Assembly (NCBI RefSeq): GCF_002980595.1
Contig: NZ_PVLQ01000063.1
Span: forward strand, 1-46,645
DNA from: Malikia granosa
Lineage (GTDB): Bacteria > Pseudomonadota > Gammaproteobacteria > Burkholderiales > Burkholderiaceae_C
DNA: 46,645 bases
Direction: 5' to 3'
The notes beneath the pieces are model-generated. The model made no database searches and had not been told where the DNA came from. It saw only the letters and a list, made by a program, of their open reading frames with translations. The position numbers and the translations under genes are program-made. Positions 7,931 to 42,983 of the stretch are shown here, piece by piece; position 1 is the stretch's first letter; each line of letters begins with the position of its first letter.

Positions 7931-9232
7931 TCCGGCCCTGACGGTGCGCGCGACCGCGCGCTCGTCGCCGAGCACGATCAGCGCGAACAGCAGCTCCTCG
8001 AGGTCGCGCGCCTGCGCCGTGCGGCGCGCCAGCAGCGGCGTGGCACGCGGATCGAGCAGCACGAAGTCGGCCTCGCAGCCCGGCGCCAGGTTGCCGACCA
8101 CCCCTTCGAGTCCGAGCGCACGCGCCGCACCCGCCGTGTGCAGCCACCAGAGCCGGCTCGGCGCCAGGCTGACGCCGGCCTTGGCCGGACCGCCGCCCGT
8201 GAAAGCCGCCCGGCCAGCCTCGTAGGCCGCCAGCATGGTGCGGAACGGACTCAAGCTGGTGCCGCCGCCGACATCGCTGGCCAGCCCATGCAGGAAACCG
8301 GTGCGCCAGGCGCTGGCAAAGTCGAAGCAGCCGCTGCCCAGGAAGAAATTGCTGGTCGGGCAGACGGCTGCTGCCGCGCCGCGTTCGCGCAGCAGCGCGC
8401 GGTCATCCTCGTCCAGGTGCAGGCAATGCGCATAGACCGAGCGCTCGCGCAACAGGCCAAAGCGCGAGTAGACCTCGAGGTAGCTGCGGTCGCGCGGATA
8501 GAGCTCGCGCACCCAAGCCAGCTCGTCGAGGTTCTCCGCCACATGCGACTGGATCCAGACCCCGGGATGGCGCGCGGCCAGCTCGCCCGCGCCTTGCAGC
8601 TGGGCGTCCGAACAGCTCGGCGCGAAGCGCGGCGTGATCGCGTAGCCGAGCCGGCCGAGGCCGTGCCAGCGCGCGATCAGCGCCTCGGTGTCGAGCAGGC
8701 TCTGCTCGGTGGCGTCGCGCACGCCGTCGGGGCAATGGCGGTCCTGCAGGCATTTGCCGGCAATCAGCTTCAGGCCGCGCGGCTGCGCGGCACTCATCAG
8801 CGCATCGACCGATTGCGGATGCGAGGTGCAGAAGGTCAGCGCGGTCGTCACGCCATGGCGGTCGAGCTCATCGAGGAAGAACTCCGCCACGCTGGCGGCA
8901 TGCTGCGGATCGGCAAAGCGCGCCTCCTGCGGGAAGGTGTGCTGCTCAAGCCAGGGCAGCAGGCCGTCGGCCGGCGAACCGATCACGTCGAGCTGCGGAT
9001 AGTGGAGATGCAGGTCGACGAAGCCCGGAGCGATCAGGTGGTCGGGCAGCGACTCGACGTCCAGGCCGGGATAGCGGTGGATCAGCTCGTGAAAAGGCCC
9101 GAGCGCCAGCACGACGCACGGCGCGCCAGGACCGCCCGCGCCCGGCCCGGTCATCAGCAGGCCGTCGGATTCATGGCGCGGCGCGCCGGTATCGGGGTCG
9201 AAGGACAGGATGGCGGCTCGATAGGCTTTCAT
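7916..9232 (-). CDS. guaD: Guanine deaminase
   Basis: A 438-residue amidohydrolase converting guanine to xanthine and ammonia. The metal motif PGFVDLHLHYPQLDVIGSP is the guanine deaminase signature, followed by WLEQHTFPQE. AGKCLQDRHCP, ITPRFAPSCSD, QSHVAENLDE and AHCLHLDEDD supply further metal and substrate residues. GLASDVGGGTSLSPF holds the final metal-binding Asp. An ATG at 9244 would add four residues. XdhAB at 27339-31240 would take the xanthine onward. Transcribed alone; convergent with hslR. Confidence 0.93.
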   Translation of the reverse strand: MKAYRAAILSFDPDTGAPRHESDGLLMTGPGAGGPGAPCVVLALGPFHELIHRYPGLDVESLPDHLIAPGFVDLHLHYPQLDVIGSPADGLLPWLEQHTFPQEARFADPQHAASVAEFFLDELDRHGVTTALTFCTSHPQSVDALMSAAQPRGLKLIAGKCLQDRHCPDGVRDATEQSLLDTEALIARWHGLGRLGYAITPRFAPSCSDAQLQGAGELAARHPGVWIQSHVAENLDELAWVRELYPRDRSYLEVYSRFGLLRERSVYAHCLHLDEDDRALLRERGAAAAVCPTSNFFLGSGCFDFASAWRTGFLHGLASDVGGGTSLSPFRTMLAAYEAGRAAFTGGGPAKAGVSLAPSRLWWLHTAGAARALGLEGVVGNLAPGCEADFVLLDPRATPLLARRTAQARDLEELLFALIVLGDERAVARTVRAGSLVD

Positions 9233-9279
9233 GCCTGCCAGCATAGCGTTACAGGCCTTGACTGGGCTCAGATGAAAGC

Positions 9280-11875
<2,596 letters not shown>

Positions 11876-27338: not shown

Positions 27339-28928
27339 ATGCCATCCGATCAGCCCCCCTTCTCGCCGCTGCGCTTTGTCCAGCGCGGCGCCATCGTCGC
27401 GGTCGAGCGCGTCGCGCCCGACCGCACCCTGCTGGCGCTGCTGCGCGAGGACCTCGGACAGCCAGCGGTCAAGGAGGGCTGCAACTCGGGCGACTGCGGC
27501 GCCTGCAGCGTGGTGCTGGCACAGGCCCGGGGCGACGGGCTGCGCTGGCGCTCGGTCAACAGCTGCCTGCGGCTGGCCCATTCGATCGATGGCAGCGCGC
27601 TCTGGACCGCCGCCGACCTGGCAGCGGACCCGCTGCTCGACCTCGGCGGGGCCGAGCTGCACCCGGCGCAGCAGGCCCTGCTCGAGCAGCATGGCTCGCA
27701 ATGCGGCTTCTGCACCCCGGGCTTCGTGATGAGCCTGTTCGCGCAGTACCAGAATCGGGTCGCGGCGGGCCAGGCGGTGAGCCGCGAGGCGGCGCAGGCC
27801 GACCTGTCGGGCAATCTGTGCCGCTGCACCGGCTACCGGCCCATCCTCGACGCGGCGCAGTCGATGGCGCGACTGCCACCGGCCCGAGTGGACCAGGCCG
27901 CCCTGCTGGCGCTGCTGGGACAGGTTGCCCCGGCAGCAAAAACCCCGCCGAGCGCCGGGCCAGCCACCGACAGGCCCGAAGGCGCGCAACCCCGCCACTA
28001 TCTGGCGCCGACCGACCTGGCGGGCCTGCTGCAGGCGCGCGCGCGCTGGCCCGAGGCCAGACTGGTGGCCGGCGCGACCGACCTCGGGCTCTCGATCACC
28101 CAGGGGCTGCAGTCCCATGAGCGGCTGATTGACCTCATGCGCGTCGAGGAACTGGCCCGCATCGAGCACCAGCCAGGCTGGCTCGGCATCGGCGCCGCGG
28201 TCACACTCGAATCGGCCTTCGCCGCGCTGCTGCGGCAATGGCCGCAGCTGATCGACTTCGCGCAGCGCTTCGCCGGCCTGCCGGTGCGCCAGTCGGGCAC
28301 GCTGGCGGGCAACATCGCCAACGGCTCGCCGATCGGCGACTCGATGCCGCTGCTGATCGCGCTGGGCGCCCAGCTGCGGCTGTTGCGCTGGGATCAGGGC
28401 AGCCAGGCGCCGGCCGAGCGCCGCCTCGCGCTCGAGGACTTCTACACCGGCTACCGCAGACACCGGCTCGGCGCGGACGAACTGATCGCTGCGGTCGAGA
28501 TCCCCTGCCCGGAGCGGCCCGCTGGTAGCGACTGGACCCGGGCCTACAAGGTGTCGAAGCGGGTCGAGGACGACATCTCGACCGTCTGCCTGGCGCTGTC
28601 GCTGCAGCTCGAGGGCGGCCGGGTGCTGGCCGCTGCCATCGGCGTCGGGGGCGTGGCGGCGACGCCGGTGCGGGCCCGGCGCACCGAAACCGTACTGATC
28701 GGCCAGCCCTGGAGCCCCGCCACGGTGCAGCAGGCCATGACCACGCTCGCAGCCGAATTCGAGCCGCTGTCCGACCTGCGCGCCAGCGCCGGCTACCGGC
28801 GCCTGGTGCTGGGCCGGCTGCTCTGGCGCAGCTGGCTCGAAAGCCAGGGCAGCGCCCTGCCCCATGCGAGCGGATTGCAGGCGCTGGAGCCGATCAGCCC
28901 CCGCACAGAGACGGAGTCTCGGCTATGA
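27339..28928 (+). CDS. xdhA: Xanthine dehydrogenase small subunit (2Fe-2S and FAD domains)
   Basis: A 529-residue subunit. The plant-type 2Fe-2S ligands are Cys48, Cys53, Cys56 and Cys76. The second 2Fe-2S domain has Cys122 and Cys125 (QCGFCTPGF) and Cys161 and Cys163 (CRCTGYRPIL). The FAD domain starts near 220 with LVAGATDLGLSIT and AGNIANGSPIGDS. This is the layout of bacterial XdhA, which carries electrons from the molybdenum subunit to NAD+. It overlaps xdhB by ATGA. The ribosome-binding site is weak. Confidence 0.94.
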   Translation: MPSDQPPFSPLRFVQRGAIVAVERVAPDRTLLALLREDLGQPAVKEGCNSGDCGACSVVLAQARGDGLRWRSVNSCLRLAHSIDGSALWTAADLAADPLLDLGGAELHPAQQALLEQHGSQCGFCTPGFVMSLFAQYQNRVAAGQAVSREAAQADLSGNLCRCTGYRPILDAAQSMARLPPARVDQAALLALLGQVAPAAKTPPSAGPATDRPEGAQPRHYLAPTDLAGLLQARARWPEARLVAGATDLGLSITQGLQSHERLIDLMRVEELARIEHQPGWLGIGAAVTLESAFAALLRQWPQLIDFAQRFAGLPVRQSGTLAGNIANGSPIGDSMPLLIALGAQLRLLRWDQGSQAPAERRLALEDFYTGYRRHRLGADELIAAVEIPCPERPAGSDWTRAYKVSKRVEDDISTVCLALSLQLEGGRVLAAAIGVGGVAATPVRARRTETVLIGQPWSPATVQQAMTTLAAEFEPLSDLRASAGYRRLVLGRLLWRSWLESQGSALPHASGLQALEPISPRTETESRL

Positions 28929-31240
28929 ACATTCCCATCCCGCCAGCGAGCGGCGCCTGCGGCCAATCCCTGCCGCACGAAAGCGCCCGGGCCCATGTCA
29001 CCGGCCAAGCCCGCTTCATCGACGACCTGCCCGAGCTGGCCGGTACCTTGCACGCCGCCCCGATCCTGTCGCCGCTGGCCCATGGACGACTGCTCGGCCT
29101 CGACAGCGCCGCCGCGCTGGCGCTGCCCGGCGTGGTCGGACTGGTGCTGGCGGCCGACATCCCGGGCGCGCGCCTGCTGCCGACCAGCGCCCGGGACGAG
29201 CCGGTGCTGGCGCAGGACGAACTGCTCTACGCCGGCCAGGTGATCGGCCTGGCCGTGGCAACGGACCGCGAAACCGCCCGGCGCGCGGCGCGGCTGGTGC
29301 AGATCCAGGCCGAGCCGCTGCCGGCGTTGCTGTCGGCGCGCGCCGCCCACGCGGCTGGCCACTATGTCGCGCCGCCGGTGCATCTGGTGCGCGGCGATGT
29401 CGCGGCCGCGCTGGCACGGGCGCCACACCGTCTGGCCGGCCAGTTCGAGAGCGGCGCGCAGGAACATTTCTACCTCGAGGGCCAGGTCGCCTACGCGCAG
29501 CCGCAGGAGCAGGGCCAGTGGCTGGTGCACAGCAGCAGCCAGCATCCGGGCGAGGTGCAGCACTGCATCGCCAGCGCGCTGGGCCTGGGCAACCACGAGG
29601 TGCAGGTGGTCTGCCGGCGCCTGGGCGGCGGCTTCGGCGGCAAGGAAACCCAGGCCAGCCAGATCGCGGTCTGGGCCACGCTGGCCGCGCACAAGTTCGG
29701 CCGCCCGGTCAAGCTCAGGCTGGACCGCAAGGACGACTTCCTGATCACCGGCAAGCGCCACGCCTTCAGCTTCGACTGGCAGGCCGGCTTCGACGACCAG
29801 GGCCGGCTGCTCGCGCTCGAACTCACCGAGCTGGCCGACTGCGGCTTTTCGGCCGACCTGTCGGTTCCGGTCTGCGACCGCGCGGTGTTCCACAGCGACA
29901 ACGCCTATTTCCTCGAGCATGTCGCGATCCACAGCTGGCGCTGCCGCACCCACAAGCAGAGCAGCACCGCCTTTCGCGGCTTCGGCGGACCGCAGGGCAT
30001 GCTCGCGATCGAGACCGTCATGGGCGAGATCGCGCGCCGGCTCGGACTCGATCCGCTCGAGGTGCGGCGGGTCAACCTCTACGGCACCCAGGAGCGTAAC
30101 GTCACGCCCTACGGCATGGTGCTGGAGGACAACATCCTGGCGCCGTTGATCGACCGGCTGGCGCACCGCGCACGCTACCTGGAGCGGCGCGCCGCGATCG
30201 CGCAATGGAACGCCGCCAACCCGGTCATCAAGCGCGGGCTGGCGCTGACTCCGGTCAAGTTCGGCATCAGCTTCACCGCGACCTCGCTCAACCAGGCCGG
30301 CGCGCTGGTCCATGTCTACACCGACGGCAGCGTGCTGCTCAACCACGGCGGCACCGAGATGGGCCAGGGCCTGCACACCAAGGTCGCACAGATCGTCGCC
30401 CAGGCGCTGGGCCTGCCGCTGCCTTGCGTGCGCGTCAGCGCGAGCGACACGGCCCGGGTACCCAATGCCTCGGCCACCGCCGCCTCGAGCGGCACCGACC
30501 TCAACGGCCGCGCCGCCCAGCTCGCCGCCTTCCAGATCCGCGAGCGGCTGGCCCGCTTCGTCGCCGAGCAGGACGGCTGCGCTGCCAGCGAGGTACGCTT
30601 CGAGCAGGCCCAGGTCGTGAGCCCGCAGGCCAGGCGCAACTGGCAGGAAGTGGTGGCCAAGGCCTATTCGGCCCGCATCCAGCTCTGGAGCGACGGCTAC
30701 TACCGCACGCCCAAGATCCACTACGACCCGCGCACGCTGAGCGGACGGCCGTTCTACTATTTCGCCTATGGCGCCGCCTGCAGCGAGGTCGCCCTCGATA
30801 CCCTGACCGGCGAGAGCCGGGTGCTGGCGGTCGACATCCTGCACGACGTCGGGCGCAGCATCAACCCGGCGCTCGACATCGGCCAGATCGAAGGCGGCTT
30901 CGTCCAGGGCATGGGCTGGCTGACCAGCGAGGAGCTGGTCTGGGACGCGCAGGGCCGGCTGCTGACCCATGGCCCGAGCAGCTACAAGATCCCGAGCGCG
31001 GGCGACCTGCCAGCCGAATTCCGGATCGAGCTCTGGCCGGAGGCGAACCGCGAGGACAATGTCTTCGGCAGCAAGGCGGTCGGCGAACCCCCCTTCATGC
31101 TGGCCATCAGCGTCTGGGAGGCGCTGCGCGACGCGGTGGCCCAGGCGCGCGGCGACGGCCAGCCGGTCCGGCTCGACGCGCCGGCGACGCCGGAGCGGCT
31201 GCTGCGGGCCATCGGCGGGCTGGACGCGCCAGCTGGCTAG
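28925..31240 (+). CDS. xdhB: Xanthine dehydrogenase molybdopterin-binding subunit
   Basis: A 771-residue molybdenum hydroxylase large subunit, oxidising hypoxanthine to xanthine and xanthine to urate. GGGFGGKE at 234-241, AFRGFGGPQG from 349, GGTEMGQGLHTK from 475 and the active-site Glu721 in AVGEPPFML are all present. Length equals typical bacterial XdhB. No xdhC (cofactor sulfuration/insertion) follows; the next gene is on the opposite strand, so the helper must lie outside the window. Confidence 0.95.
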   Translation: MNIPIPPASGACGQSLPHESARAHVTGQARFIDDLPELAGTLHAAPILSPLAHGRLLGLDSAAALALPGVVGLVLAADIPGARLLPTSARDEPVLAQDELLYAGQVIGLAVATDRETARRAARLVQIQAEPLPALLSARAAHAAGHYVAPPVHLVRGDVAAALARAPHRLAGQFESGAQEHFYLEGQVAYAQPQEQGQWLVHSSSQHPGEVQHCIASALGLGNHEVQVVCRRLGGGFGGKETQASQIAVWATLAAHKFGRPVKLRLDRKDDFLITGKRHAFSFDWQAGFDDQGRLLALELTELADCGFSADLSVPVCDRAVFHSDNAYFLEHVAIHSWRCRTHKQSSTAFRGFGGPQGMLAIETVMGEIARRLGLDPLEVRRVNLYGTQERNVTPYGMVLEDNILAPLIDRLAHRARYLERRAAIAQWNAANPVIKRGLALTPVKFGISFTATSLNQAGALVHVYTDGSVLLNHGGTEMGQGLHTKVAQIVAQALGLPLPCVRVSASDTARVPNASATAASSGTDLNGRAAQLAAFQIRERLARFVAEQDGCAASEVRFEQAQVVSPQARRNWQEVVAKAYSARIQLWSDGYYRTPKIHYDPRTLSGRPFYYFAYGAACSEVALDTLTGESRVLAVDILHDVGRSINPALDIGQIEGGFVQGMGWLTSEELVWDAQGRLLTHGPSSYKIPSAGDLPAEFRIELWPEANREDNVFGSKAVGEPPFMLAISVWEALRDAVAQARGDGQPVRLDAPATPERLLRAIGGLDAPAG

Positions 31241-34016: not shown

Positions 34017-34107
34017 GGAAACGTGGCCGAGCGGTTTAAGGCAGCGCTCTTGAAAAGCGCCGAGGGCTGATACCCCTCCGTGAGTTCGAATCTCACCGTT
34101 TCCGCCA
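34017..34107 (+). tRNA. tRNA-Ser, anticodon UGA
   Basis: Acceptor stem GGAAACG (34017-34023) pairs with CGTTTCC (34097-34103), followed by discriminator G and an encoded CCA. The anticodon arm GCGCT/AGCGC encloses loop CTTGAAA with anticodon TGA at 34051-34053. The T-arm is GTGAGTTCGAATCTCAC. A long variable arm (CGAGGG...CCCTCCG) marks a class II tRNA, confirming serine. Confidence 0.97.
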
Positions 34108-34429
34108 GTCCGGCAACGTGCCCAGGTTGTCCGGTTCCACTGGGCCCTCACGCGGGCAAGAATCAGGCTTGCCACGGCAACGATTGACGAACTGGCTGGA
34201 CATCACGACATCAGCCAGGCGACGCCGGCCAGCGAACGATCCAGCAGCCTCCCGCGGTCCGACTCACCGCATATTCCACTTGTCTCCCCCTGACCACTGC
34301 CTAGAATGCGGCCGTGGCTGGTACATGCTTTTTGCTGTTGAGTGCTGATCCGCGGCCGATCAATCGCGACTCCGCCAAGGGGCTAATGACTGCGACCCAC
34401 AGAGCCCACAACAACCTTGGCCCAATGTC
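34108..34429. other. Non-coding stretch between tRNA-Ser and the biosynthetic cassette
   Basis: About 320 bases without a credible gene: the short open frames here have no homology signal and no ribosome-binding site. The only element seen is a sigma-70-like promoter at 34280-34307. No repeat of the tRNA 3' end (an attachment-site mark), integrase remnant or inverted repeat was noticed. Confidence 0.6.
34280..34307 (+). promoter_or_regulatory. Candidate sigma-70 promoter for the 34430-38404 cassette
   Basis: TTGTCT (34280-34285), a 16-base spacer, then TAGAAT (34302-34307). It points towards the cassette and would give a 5' leader of about 115 bases before the ATG at 34430. Confidence 0.45.
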
Positions 34430-35440
34430 ATGTCAACGACCCTCATCCTGCCGCTCCCGCCATCAGACTTGAAACAGGGCGTTCATGCGCAAGCTGACGC
34501 AGCGACGCAGGAACGACTGCTCCAGTGGCTCGACGCCACGGTGAACGCCATCCGCGCAGCCTGCCTGGGACCCGTCACGGCCGACCTCGCCGACAGGACA
34601 GCCAGGGACAGCGAGTCCTTGTCGGAAGAGCTGGTCTCGCTTTTCTTGCACAAAAGCTTCAACCATCAATCACGTGGCCGACTCAGGGCCATACTGCCTC
34701 GCTTTCGCCAGGGCTTGCAATCACATATCGACGCCATGCGACCCTTGACGTTGTACTTCCTGTACAACGGCGGCTACCGGGCATCACCCTTGCCGCAAGA
34801 CCCAGCCCCCCTTTTTCATCCGGATCAAACAGAACTGATGCTGCTGCGCCAGATCGCGCTGCTGCAGGCAAGAGTCACGCAGAAATACGCCCCCGGGATT
34901 GATTTCGTCATCGTGCTGAACAATGGCGTGGCGGCCTACGTCAACGACATATCCTTGGACAAAACCAGTCGCTATGCCAAGGAACTACGGGAAATCATCG
35001 AGTCACTTGGCGCCAGCAAATTCGTTCGCGTGCTGCTGCAATCCGAAGCGCCTGGATTCAGCAGCAGCCAACCCAAACCTGGATACCAGACGCTACCGGA
35101 AATAAACCAGAAGGAACATGCGATTGTCGAGCGCTTCCTGGGGCGGCCCTGTTCTGCGCAAGAGGCCAGCTACCGGGCATGGCTCTACCAGATAGCCGAG
35201 ACTGAATGGGCCAAGGACTTGGCGCCGCTGGTCACGCGGGACCATGGCCTCCTGCTGCGACAGGTCGCGAGCCCGGGAATGCTTTCCTTCCGTGCTTTCC
35301 CAGGCGGGGCCATACGGGCACAAAATGGCTCGCTGGGATTCCAGGAAGTCGACCAGACCTGGGTTCCCAAGCTCATCTCGGCAGAAACCTACAGCCAGTA
35401 CCAGATCCAGACGATCAACTGGTCACTCCCGCTGGCGTGA
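34430..35440 (+). CDS. Divergent PvcA/Dit1-like protein (isonitrile synthase superfamily candidate)
   Basis: A 336-residue protein, unassigned with certainty. Length and motif spacing resemble PvcA/IsnA isonitrile synthases, which turn the amino group of Tyr or Trp into an isonitrile. A strand LTLYFLYNGGY near 106 is followed by PDQTELMLLRQ (131-141), QKYAPGIDFVIVLNNG (151-166), and SRYAKELREIIESLGA (180-195), in the same order as PvcA strands and helices. A C-terminal WLYQIAETEWAKDL follows. But the Lys/Ser loop (AKSPN in PvcA) reads GYRASPLP, the SDG motif reads NNG, and the late SIHP motif is missing. It may catalyse a different reaction. No clear Shine-Dalgarno. Likely co-transcribed with the synthetase 39 bases downstream. 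Lower GC than its flanks. Confidence 0.5.
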   Translation: MSTTLILPLPPSDLKQGVHAQADAATQERLLQWLDATVNAIRAACLGPVTADLADRTARDSESLSEELVSLFLHKSFNHQSRGRLRAILPRFRQGLQSHIDAMRPLTLYFLYNGGYRASPLPQDPAPLFHPDQTELMLLRQIALLQARVTQKYAPGIDFVIVLNNGVAAYVNDISLDKTSRYAKELREIIESLGASKFVRVLLQSEAPGFSSSQPKPGYQTLPEINQKEHAIVERFLGRPCSAQEASYRAWLYQIAETEWAKDLAPLVTRDHGLLLRQVASPGMLSFRAFPGGAIRAQNGSLGFQEVDQTWVPKLISAETYSQYQIQTINWSLPLA

Positions 35441-35479
35441 CAAGCAATCGTCCCCTCAAGGCCAGAAAACTCGATCAAG

Positions 35480-38404
35480 ATGCACGCCAACCTTGTCTGG
35501 CATGAGACACCCTTTGCCGAGCCCGATGCCGACCGCGTCCATGAAGCGCTACCAGTGGCATTGGCCAGGGCCTGTCAGCTTTGGCCAGAGCGGACCGCGG
35601 TCCTGCATGAGACCCAGCGCTTCCGTTTTCAGGAGCTGGCCTGCCGCGCAGCCGGTCTGGCGCAGGAGATCCAAGCCTCCGCTACGGCCCCGGGCCCGGT
35701 CGCACTCCTGCAATCGGTGGGATTTGACGCGGTGGCAGCCTGGTTTGCCTGCGCAATGGCCGGAAGGCCCTTGCTGCTGCTGGAACCCGGGCAGCCACCT
35801 CATCGCTTGCTGGAACTGATCGAGTCAGCCGCCTGCACCCTGCTGCTGTGTGATGCCGTGACATTGGCAAGCTTGCCCAGCGGGCTGGCGGTCAGAACCC
35901 TGGTTTCCGACGGCCGATCGAGCCAGCTGAACCTTGACAAGGTTCTGGGCGCTGATGAGCCCGCCATGATATTTCCTACTTCGGGCTCTACCGGCAGCCC
36001 CAAGTTGGTCACCTACTCGGCCGCCACCCTGCAGGCCAAGGTGCAGGCCTCCATCGCACTGATGCAAGTGTCCTCGGGATCAAGAGTCCTGATTGCAGGA
36101 TCACACGGCAACTATGGCTTCCTTCACCATGCGATGGTTTTCTTGTTATCCGGCGGAGCGCTCTGTCTGGCCGACATCAAGAAGCTGGGATTTGCTGCCC
36201 TGAGTGATGCCATCCTGCGCCTCGAGGCCAGGCATATCAGGTTCACGCCGTCGATGTTTCGCAATTTTGCCACCCTGCCTGGTGCCAAAGACGTGCTGGG
36301 CTACCTGGATGCCGTCCGTTTTTCGGGTGAACCGTTGCTCGCGTCGGACCTCGAACTGGCACGCAAGACCCTGCAGCCGAACTGCCTGATTCAAAACGTC
36401 TACGGCAGCACGGAAAGCGCCCTGTTCATTTGCCACTGCGATGGAACCGATACTGTACAAGCAACGGTTCCCATGGGTCAGATCTACCCGTTTTCCTGCT
36501 ACGCCTTGCGGCCGATCGACGAGAGCAGCAGAGACATCGACACGGGAGAACTGCTGATTCGATCTTCCTACCAAGCCCTTGGCGACTGGAAGCCCGGCGG
36601 TATCGATTCGGAACGTTTCCCCCTTTTCGCCCCAGGCAGCCCGGAACGCCTCTACGCCACCGGAGACCTTGTCAGGCGCCGGCCAGACGGCCAGCTGCTA
36701 CATCTGGGCCGAATCGGGAGAATGGCCAAGATCAGGGGACAAAGAGTCTATCTGAGCGAGGTGGAAAACAATTTGCGCTCCATTCCCGGTGTCACTGGCG
36801 CAGCGGTCATCGAGGACCAGGAAGCCTGCAGCCCCCGGCTTTACGGCTTCATCACCAGGAATGAAGCGTTCAACGAAGATCCCAGAAAATGGCTCGCGCA
36901 TCGCTTGCCAGACTTCATGGTTCCTGCCGGGATCGAGGTCATCGAGGCCATTCCGCTGCTGGCCGGAGGCAAGGTGGACTACAAGGCCTTGACCACCCGC
37001 ATCCCCAGGCACGAAGCCATCAGGGGCGACAAGCATGAAGGCAAGAATGCCTACGAGCACCTCTGCCATCTGTGGGATGTCGTGCTGTGGCCAGGCGCCC
37101 ACCAACACCCCAGCGACTTCGTGGCATTGGGCGGAGACTCGCTCAAGCTGATGCAGTTGATGCTGCATGTCGAGAAAAGCTTCAAGAACAGCTTTTCAGT
37201 CGATGAATTCCTCGTCGATGCAAGCCTCCACAATCTGGCCCGACTGATTGGCATAGACAATCCATCACATGTGACTGAAAAGCAGCCGGGATTGAGATTC
37301 AGGCTGGCATGGCCAAGCAGCACGCCATCGAAAGGGATAGCCTTGGCCGTCCCGGGATGGGGTGGATCGGCAATGGCCGTACCCTTTGCCAGGGCCGGGC
37401 TGTTTGCAGGGCATGACTTGTGGGCGGCCGATATCGGCCTGGCTGGCGGCAACATCCTTCAAGGCAACAGCTGGTGGAAGACCGCCATCGAGATCGCTGA
37501 CCAGATCAAGGCCGGTGCCTTGCCTAGACCCAGGATCATCTTCGGCTATTCGGCCGGAGGCAGCGTTGCCTGGCTGGTTGGCCGCCTGCTGGCAGCATCA
37601 GGTTGCGCGCCCGACTATGTCCTGATGTCCGACTCCTCGCCCCTGCATCGCCTGCCAGCCTATAGCCACCGCGACCTTCGGCGCCTGCTGGCGGCAAGCC
37701 CAGCGGAGCGGATGCCAGCCGTGATCCATATCCGGAGAACCTGTCTGGCCCAACTCGAGATCGGAAGAGGCAACGCACATGCCTGGATGCCAGAGGACAA
37801 TCTCCAGTTCACGTTCGACATCCCTACTGTCGATCATTCGGAGATGTCGCGCAGCGAGGTATTGGCCCTGGCGGCTCCCGCGGTGGAATCCTACTTGAGC
37901 GGCAGTCCTCCTGCAGACCGAGCAGCGACAAGCTCAAGCAATCCCCAGACGGTCGGCGCAGAAATCTACCAGAGGCTTCATCGAGAGGCGCCCAGCAACG
38001 TCGCTGAGCTCAACCAGCTCGTCAGGCATCCAGGCTTGGGCAAGGGCCATCTAGGCGCCTTGCTGCAGCTGACGCTACGGGACTGTCGAACCGAGCCAGC
38101 GTCAGCCTTGGTCGCCGAGCTCTTGTTGCAGCACCCTGACGCGCTCATCCTGCAGCTTGCGCAATCACGACTTCGTCGCAAGCCATCGGACCTGTGCCCG
38201 GGATTCCTTCCATTCGGCAGGCTGAAGAGCGTGGCGACACTCGAAAGAACGCTCGCGGCGCACCACCTGGCTTTTACCGATGCAACGGGAACCGGGCAAG
38301 GCACCGGACTGGGGCCAATCAAACTCGCGCGCCTCTTCGTCGATCTGGTCAAGGCAGTGACCCAGGTGCGCTCGAGTCGTCCCAAAAGGCGACCTGTGCG
38401 CTGA
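35480..38404 (+). CDS. Nonribosomal peptide synthetase-like protein, A-PCP-TE
   Basis: A 974-residue single-module enzyme. The adenylation domain is at about 25-510: A3 FPTSGSTGSPK from 165, A5 NVYGSTE at 306-312, A7 RLYATGDL from 390, and A10 Lys498 in GGKVD. The carrier domain at about 520-590 has phosphopantetheine Ser554 in LGGDSL. The thioesterase at about 605-805 has Ser691 in GYSAGG, Asp718 as possible acid and His786 in VDHSEM. A tail of about 150 residues (825-974) is unassigned, with a basic end. There is no condensation domain. The A4 region (GNYGFLHHAM from 210) lacks the Asp that grips the alpha-amino group, so the substrate is probably not an ordinary amino acid. It likely acts with the upstream PvcA-like protein. 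Codon use and GC differ from neighbours. Confidence 0.88.
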   Translation: MHANLVWHETPFAEPDADRVHEALPVALARACQLWPERTAVLHETQRFRFQELACRAAGLAQEIQASATAPGPVALLQSVGFDAVAAWFACAMAGRPLLLLEPGQPPHRLLELIESAACTLLLCDAVTLASLPSGLAVRTLVSDGRSSQLNLDKVLGADEPAMIFPTSGSTGSPKLVTYSAATLQAKVQASIALMQVSSGSRVLIAGSHGNYGFLHHAMVFLLSGGALCLADIKKLGFAALSDAILRLEARHIRFTPSMFRNFATLPGAKDVLGYLDAVRFSGEPLLASDLELARKTLQPNCLIQNVYGSTESALFICHCDGTDTVQATVPMGQIYPFSCYALRPIDESSRDIDTGELLIRSSYQALGDWKPGGIDSERFPLFAPGSPERLYATGDLVRRRPDGQLLHLGRIGRMAKIRGQRVYLSEVENNLRSIPGVTGAAVIEDQEACSPRLYGFITRNEAFNEDPRKWLAHRLPDFMVPAGIEVIEAIPLLAGGKVDYKALTTRIPRHEAIRGDKHEGKNAYEHLCHLWDVVLWPGAHQHPSDFVALGGDSLKLMQLMLHVEKSFKNSFSVDEFLVDASLHNLARLIGIDNPSHVTEKQPGLRFRLAWPSSTPSKGIALAVPGWGGSAMAVPFARAGLFAGHDLWAADIGLAGGNILQGNSWWKTAIEIADQIKAGALPRPRIIFGYSAGGSVAWLVGRLLAASGCAPDYVLMSDSSPLHRLPAYSHRDLRRLLAASPAERMPAVIHIRRTCLAQLEIGRGNAHAWMPEDNLQFTFDIPTVDHSEMSRSEVLALAAPAVESYLSGSPPADRAATSSSNPQTVGAEIYQRLHREAPSNVAELNQLVRHPGLGKGHLGALLQLTLRDCRTEPASALVAELLLQHPDALILQLAQSRLRRKPSDLCPGFLPFGRLKSVATLERTLAAHHLAFTDATGTGQGTGLGPIKLARLFVDLVKAVTQVRSSRPKRRPVR

Positions 38405-38465: not shown

Positions 38466-42983
<4,518 letters not shown>

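Follow-up and report, generated by a model that had tools for sequence, protein, structure and literature searches.

A PvcA/Dit1-like gene paired with a single-module synthetase gene in Malikia: a candidate accessory biosynthetic unit

Layout of the locus

Two adjacent genes of Malikia granosa are described here, located in a stretch of 46,645 nucleotides (NCBI RefSeq assembly GCF_002980595.1, contig NZ_PVLQ01000063.1, positions 1 to 46,645) hereafter called the window. Both lie on the + strand, between a gene for tRNA-Ser(TGA) and a convergent gene for a hybrid histidine kinase. The first gene (34430..35440) encodes a 336-residue, diverged protein of the DIT1/PvcA superfamily (PF05141), while the second (35480..38404), after a spacer of 39 bp, encodes a 974-residue synthetase made of an adenylation (A) domain, a peptidyl carrier protein (PCP) domain, a thioesterase (TE) domain and a C-terminal tail. 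The two genes, which together take up 4 kb, are proposed, with a probability of about one half, to form an accessory biosynthetic unit in which the diverged PvcA-like enzyme prepares an acid, and the A-PCP-TE synthetase activates and releases it.

The tRNA gene (34017..34107, + strand) precedes the pair by 322 bp, counted from its 3' end, in an order shared with Malikia spinosa. The histidine kinase gene (38466-42983) runs on the strand opposite to the pair. One promoter-like site was found at 34280-34307, shuffled sequences giving 1.0 on average, and PADLOC gave no match for either protein.

The A-PCP-TE synthetase

All the domains of the second protein are matched above their Pfam cut-offs (AMP-binding, residues 29-368; AMP-binding_C, 427-498; PP-binding, 545-590; Thioesterase, 664-732), which bears out the initial annotation of a 974-residue A-PCP-TE enzyme directly after the first gene. 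The order is that of a single-module nonribosomal peptide synthetase (NRPS), and known single-module A-PCP-TE synthetases have the same one. From Pfam and alignments, the A domain spans residues 29-504 (35564..36991) and retains Lys498, within what is presumably motif A10. The PCP domain (37112..37249) holds a GGDS motif with Ser554, and the TE domain (37337..37894, approximate borders) a GYSAGG motif whose Ser691 would form a catalytic triad with the candidates Asp718, 27 residues further, and His786. For the last 169 residues (37895..38401), Pfam yields nothing at E up to 10. Besides this extra tail, the synthetase differs from A-PCP-TE and EntE-type enzymes in the divergence of its A domain, which reaches 190.7 bits against the NCBIfam AA-adenyl-dom model, below the cut-off of 317.4, and shows 25-29% identity to matching plasmid records (1306 in all, the 40 best compared).

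In A domains acting on amino acids, Asp235 binds the alpha-amine of the substrate. The corresponding segment of the Malikia synthetase, SHGNYGFLHH (36101..36130), lacks an acidic residue (Asp or Glu) at that position and close to it. Alignments with LgrA, and with EntF, EntE and Pls-type domains, put Tyr212 there, while hidden Markov model (HMM) alignments place Gly213 (with EntF) or Asn211 (with EntE) instead; no alignment register yields an Asp or Glu, one four-sequence alignment that misplaced the segment being excluded from this reading. The aspartate is kept in EntF and in the Pls-type A domains of this genome and of a further Malikia genome (G812), and is missing in EntE, annotated as 2,3-dihydroxybenzoate-AMP ligase. 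The lack of the amine-binding aspartate suggests that the probable substrate of the A domain is an acid with a masked nitrogen or none, and an acid without a free amine would suit a PvcA-like step ahead of it.

The PvcA-like protein

The only Pfam match of the first protein is PF05141 (DIT1_PvcA), at E 1.4e-4 and 21.9 bits, below the cut-off of 26.4, and it covers residues 131-201 only (34820..35032; profile positions 33-102 of 273). The M. spinosa ortholog matches the same profile over positions 32-113 with 27.2 bits (E 3.3e-6), above the cut-off, and no other Pfam family is found for either ortholog at E up to 10. An HMM built from three PvcA proteins gives the two orthologs 17.3 and 14.2 bits, compared to 7.9 for the best of 2000 residue shuffles, and the reversed sequence also scores lower. 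In a profile-profile comparison, the alignment to the three PvcA proteins extends over 69 columns with 26% identity (E 2.6e-5, probability 75), and in a PDB search with a two-sequence profile PvcA (3E59) comes first of 4 matches, at E 0.27 only.

The initial annotation had likened this protein to PvcA/Dit1 by the order of its motifs, and these motifs (PDQTE, YAPG and RYAKEL...LGA, together with LNNG) do fall inside the aligned stretch. The likeness to the PvcA/IsnA isonitrile synthases (PF05141; 3E59) thus lies in a superfamily match over the series PD..E, YxPG and RY..EL..LGA. These synthases turn the amine of an amino acid into an isonitrile, using ribulose-5-phosphate. Direct alignments with PvcA show 16-22% identity, and about 50 more residues precede the aligned stretch in the Malikia protein than in PvcA. 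The kinship is taken here to be real but distant.

Conservation and origin of the pair

In M. spinosa strain 83 the pair is intact and in the same order after tRNA-Ser(TGA), each protein being 87% identical over its full length between the two species and the spacer measuring 45 bp. The divergence of the two genes is alike (dN 0.067-0.074, dS 0.31-0.35, dN/dS about 0.2), and so is their GC content at third codon positions (0.717 and 0.708), which is lower than the 0.894-0.933 of the four neighbours measured and marks their codon use as foreign. Among five Malikia genomes, both genes are present in two and neither in three. One of the latter (G1065) is 84% complete, with the pair site read, and in another (G812) the contig ends about 1 kb past the tRNA; the one extra match to the second protein comes from G812 and, judged by eye, is a Pls-like synthetase.

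At the same site, G1065 carries an AbiJ_NTD4/DUF7014 gene and a PD-(D/E)XK gene, G812 an IS200-like transposase gene, and G997 other genes; the site 3' of tRNA-Ser(TGA) is therefore variable among Malikia, and to all appearance the pair came in from outside and was then retained. The tRNA-Ser(TGA) of G1065 itself differs, with 47 of 90 bases like those of the window tRNA in an ungapped comparison. The 12 bases at the 3' end of the tRNA occur only once in the window.

Relatives of the first gene were sought in several genome samples, whose draws overlap, so that the counts are not additive. A relative was found in one of 399 genomes of the order sample, which is the window genome itself, and in 2 of 399 of the family sample, both Malikia; the two matches among 369 genomes of the class sample are the gene itself and a histidine kinase. 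The search in the family of G524 (0 of 198) had no known positive and is uninformative. There was no match on plasmids at E 0.01 or 10, and none confirmed in viral contigs. Exact peptide patterns, a method which detects close relatives only, matched a single genome contig, from M. spinosa. No ortholog of the first gene was thus found outside Malikia in the genome samples searched.

Other PF05141 loci and known systems

PF05141 itself was matched in 6 of 398 genomes of the phylum sample (4 above the cut-off) and in 2 of 215 of the family sample, both Malikia. Fifteen other loci were read with about 7 kb of flanking sequence in either direction, or less at contig ends (0.3 kb on one side at L050, 1.3 kb on one side at L012). 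They comprise five from the phylum search, its sixth match being the window, and ten of 15 plasmid records; the records H43, H45, H46, H48 and H50 were left out as apparent near-duplicates, judged by organism and score. These loci provide a comparison set of 17 PF05141-type proteins, two loci contributing two each; the Moraxella osloensis record H56 lies outside it.

An adjacent A-PCP-TE gene occurs at none of the 15 loci, consistent with the initial description of the arrangement as unfamiliar. At one of them (L050) an open reading frame with an A domain, acyl-CoA ligase-like, stands 4.6 kb from the PvcA gene; by eye it resembles what is presumably a propionyl-CoA ligase. In the PvcA/PvcB pathway, a PvcB-type oxygenase is encoded next to PvcA or fused to it, whereas no PvcB-like partner is seen near the Malikia pair: at E 1e-3 an HMM of two PvcB proteins detected none in either the window or L002 (no PF02668 search was made of the rest of the genome), and the same HMM gave a match beside or fused to the PvcA gene at 5 of the 15 other loci, two of which are its source loci. 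The lack of a PvcB partner noted at the outset is upheld within this scope.

Three divergent PF05141 proteins with TEG/AEG, SPRP and PYHG motifs are encoded at L040:6872-7987 and at L041:6632-7837 and 8825-9958. One of these, from Agrobacterium, has TRAP-transporter and ROK genes on its two sides and carries the annotation isonitrile synthase family. A 281-residue PF05141-like protein without the P(W/Y)H motif (L008:1195-2037, genome G402; 21.9 bits) is encoded beside two genes which by eye resemble what are taken to be KipI/KipA.

A described parallel is the fungal isocyanide synthase-NRPS CrmA, in which, according to the passages dealing with it (PMC5974471, PMC9381783), a PF05141 domain works together with adenylation and thiolation domains. 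CrmA is there a single fused protein which also holds a transferase domain, and its product is a valine-derived isocyanide (PMC9381783); the Malikia system, by contrast, consists of two genes, ends in a thioesterase and has a diverged first protein. In its account of isocyanide synthase-NRPS proteins, a 2018 survey reports them from fungi only (PMC5974471). Pseudomonas corrugata has two DIT1-type genes flanking a phosphatase gene, and the passage describing them names no adjoining synthetase (PMC5890197). Among the titles and abstract openings listed by literature searches, none concerned a bacterial pair of the present kind.

Proposed function and alternative explanations

The last part of the path follows from the predicted domains of the synthetase: a carboxylic acid is activated, attached to the PCP and set free by the TE. 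In the proposed mechanism, the pair would have been acquired by some Malikia and then kept by selection. The first protein, as a deeply diverged enzyme of the PvcA/Dit1 superfamily, would modify a small acid, its likeliest target being the nitrogen of an amino acid, and the A domain would need no alpha-amine because this modification would come first. The modified acid would then be adenylated and loaded onto the PCP, which a phosphopantetheinyl transferase (PPTase)-like gene elsewhere in the genome could prime, and the TE would free the product by hydrolysis, transfer to an alcohol or self-condensation. Peptide elongation is unlikely, because no condensation domain (PF00668) was matched in the genome, the same search being positive in 4 of 14 control genomes.

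A more specific form of this proposal, of lower probability, is offered tentatively. The pair would be a bacterial two-gene counterpart of the fungal isocyanide synthase-NRPS proteins, where a PvcA-like enzyme without the shared acid and histidine motifs performs a different, undescribed nitrogen modification, and the A domain for acids without a free amine, together with the TE, releases the product. If the pair does work as a unit, it would widen the PvcA/Dit1 superfamily in two ways: by members that lack the usual shared residues, and by a bacterial pair of genes connected with carrier-protein chemistry, a link that the 2018 survey reports only from fungi and as a fusion (PMC5974471). The pair is small enough to be expressed whole in a laboratory strain.

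Several observations weigh against this proposal. In the first protein, similarity to known families is confined to about 70 residues, and searches of the PDB with the single sequence and of NCBIfam returned nothing at E up to 10. Neither structure prediction succeeded, the mean pLDDT (predicted local distance difference test) being 36.9 for the first protein, predicted from two sequences, and 31.8 for the synthetase. At the acid of the SDG/TDS/TEG motif, all 17 proteins of the comparison set have Asp or Glu, and the two Malikia proteins have Asn (Asn164 of Asn164-Asn165, 34919..34924). The P(W/Y)H motif near the C-terminus, present in 16 of the 17 (all except L008), is missing from both, and so is FPxK, which L013 and L008 also lack and whose site the L047 sequence does not cover. 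With so short an alignment and these shared residues lost, it is conceivable that the nitrogen of an amino acid is not what the first protein acts on. The co-occurrence of the two genes, which had been put forward as a check on the pairing, holds in two species, with both genes absent from three genomes, yet it rests on one lineage because no relative was found outside Malikia. Moreover, the PPTase-like open reading frame scores 23.0 bits with PF01648, below the cut-off of 25, no transporter was found adjoining the pair, and the adjacent histidine kinase gene is also present in G1065, which is without the pair.

The first protein could instead be a working isonitrile synthase, with the A-PCP-TE enzyme activating and releasing an isocyano acid, in which case the pair would be a bacterial, split version of CrmA. 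The kinship to PF05141 and an A domain without Asp235, which would suit an acid lacking a free amine, agree with such a role, and the described joining of an isocyanide synthase to adenylation and thiolation domains in CrmA provides a precedent (PMC9381783). This reading, which is close to the isonitrile chemistry first suggested for the locus, is nevertheless weakened because the alignment to PvcA is limited to those roughly 70 residues and both Malikia proteins lack the shared acid and the FPxK and P(W/Y)H motifs, and it is considered unlikely. As shared residues, the missing motifs speak against an ordinary isonitrile synthase, and L008 calls for caution in this argument, as it shows that P(W/Y)H and FPxK can also be lost elsewhere in the superfamily.

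It is improbable that the two genes are unrelated cargo of the same variable site after tRNA-Ser(TGA). The AbiJ_NTD4/DUF7014, PD-(D/E)XK and transposase genes which other Malikia carry there would fit such an origin, but the two genes share strand, short spacers, GC content at third codon positions and divergence, and are kept together in two species and jointly absent from three genomes. A chance resemblance of a beta-alpha-beta segment to PF05141, with the first protein belonging to an unrelated Rossmann-like family, is likewise improbable. The match is short and weak, the PDB evidence is limited to the profile search, the two-sequence profile also matched, over this region, a histidine kinase (E 0.003, taken for chance), and in the comparison with L008, a PF05141 protein that itself matches weakly, the probability was 1.1. 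Against this stand the ortholog above the Pfam cut-off, the scores of both orthologs beyond all 2000 shuffles, PF05141 as the sole Pfam family and PvcA at the head of the PDB profile search.

Further observations in the genome

Elsewhere in the genome, a synthetase of the Pls/PosA family is encoded at L039:1694-5665 (G000:C13), with 735 bits against TIGR02353 (cut-off 423), and the PPTase-like open reading frame follows directly after it. A relative is also seen, by eye, in G812. An AcpS-type match above the cut-off lies on another contig. Within the window, two adjoining molybdenum-hydroxylase genes (FAD/2Fe-2S and molybdopterin subunits) are found at 27339-31240, beside a gene for a hemerythrin-domain protein.

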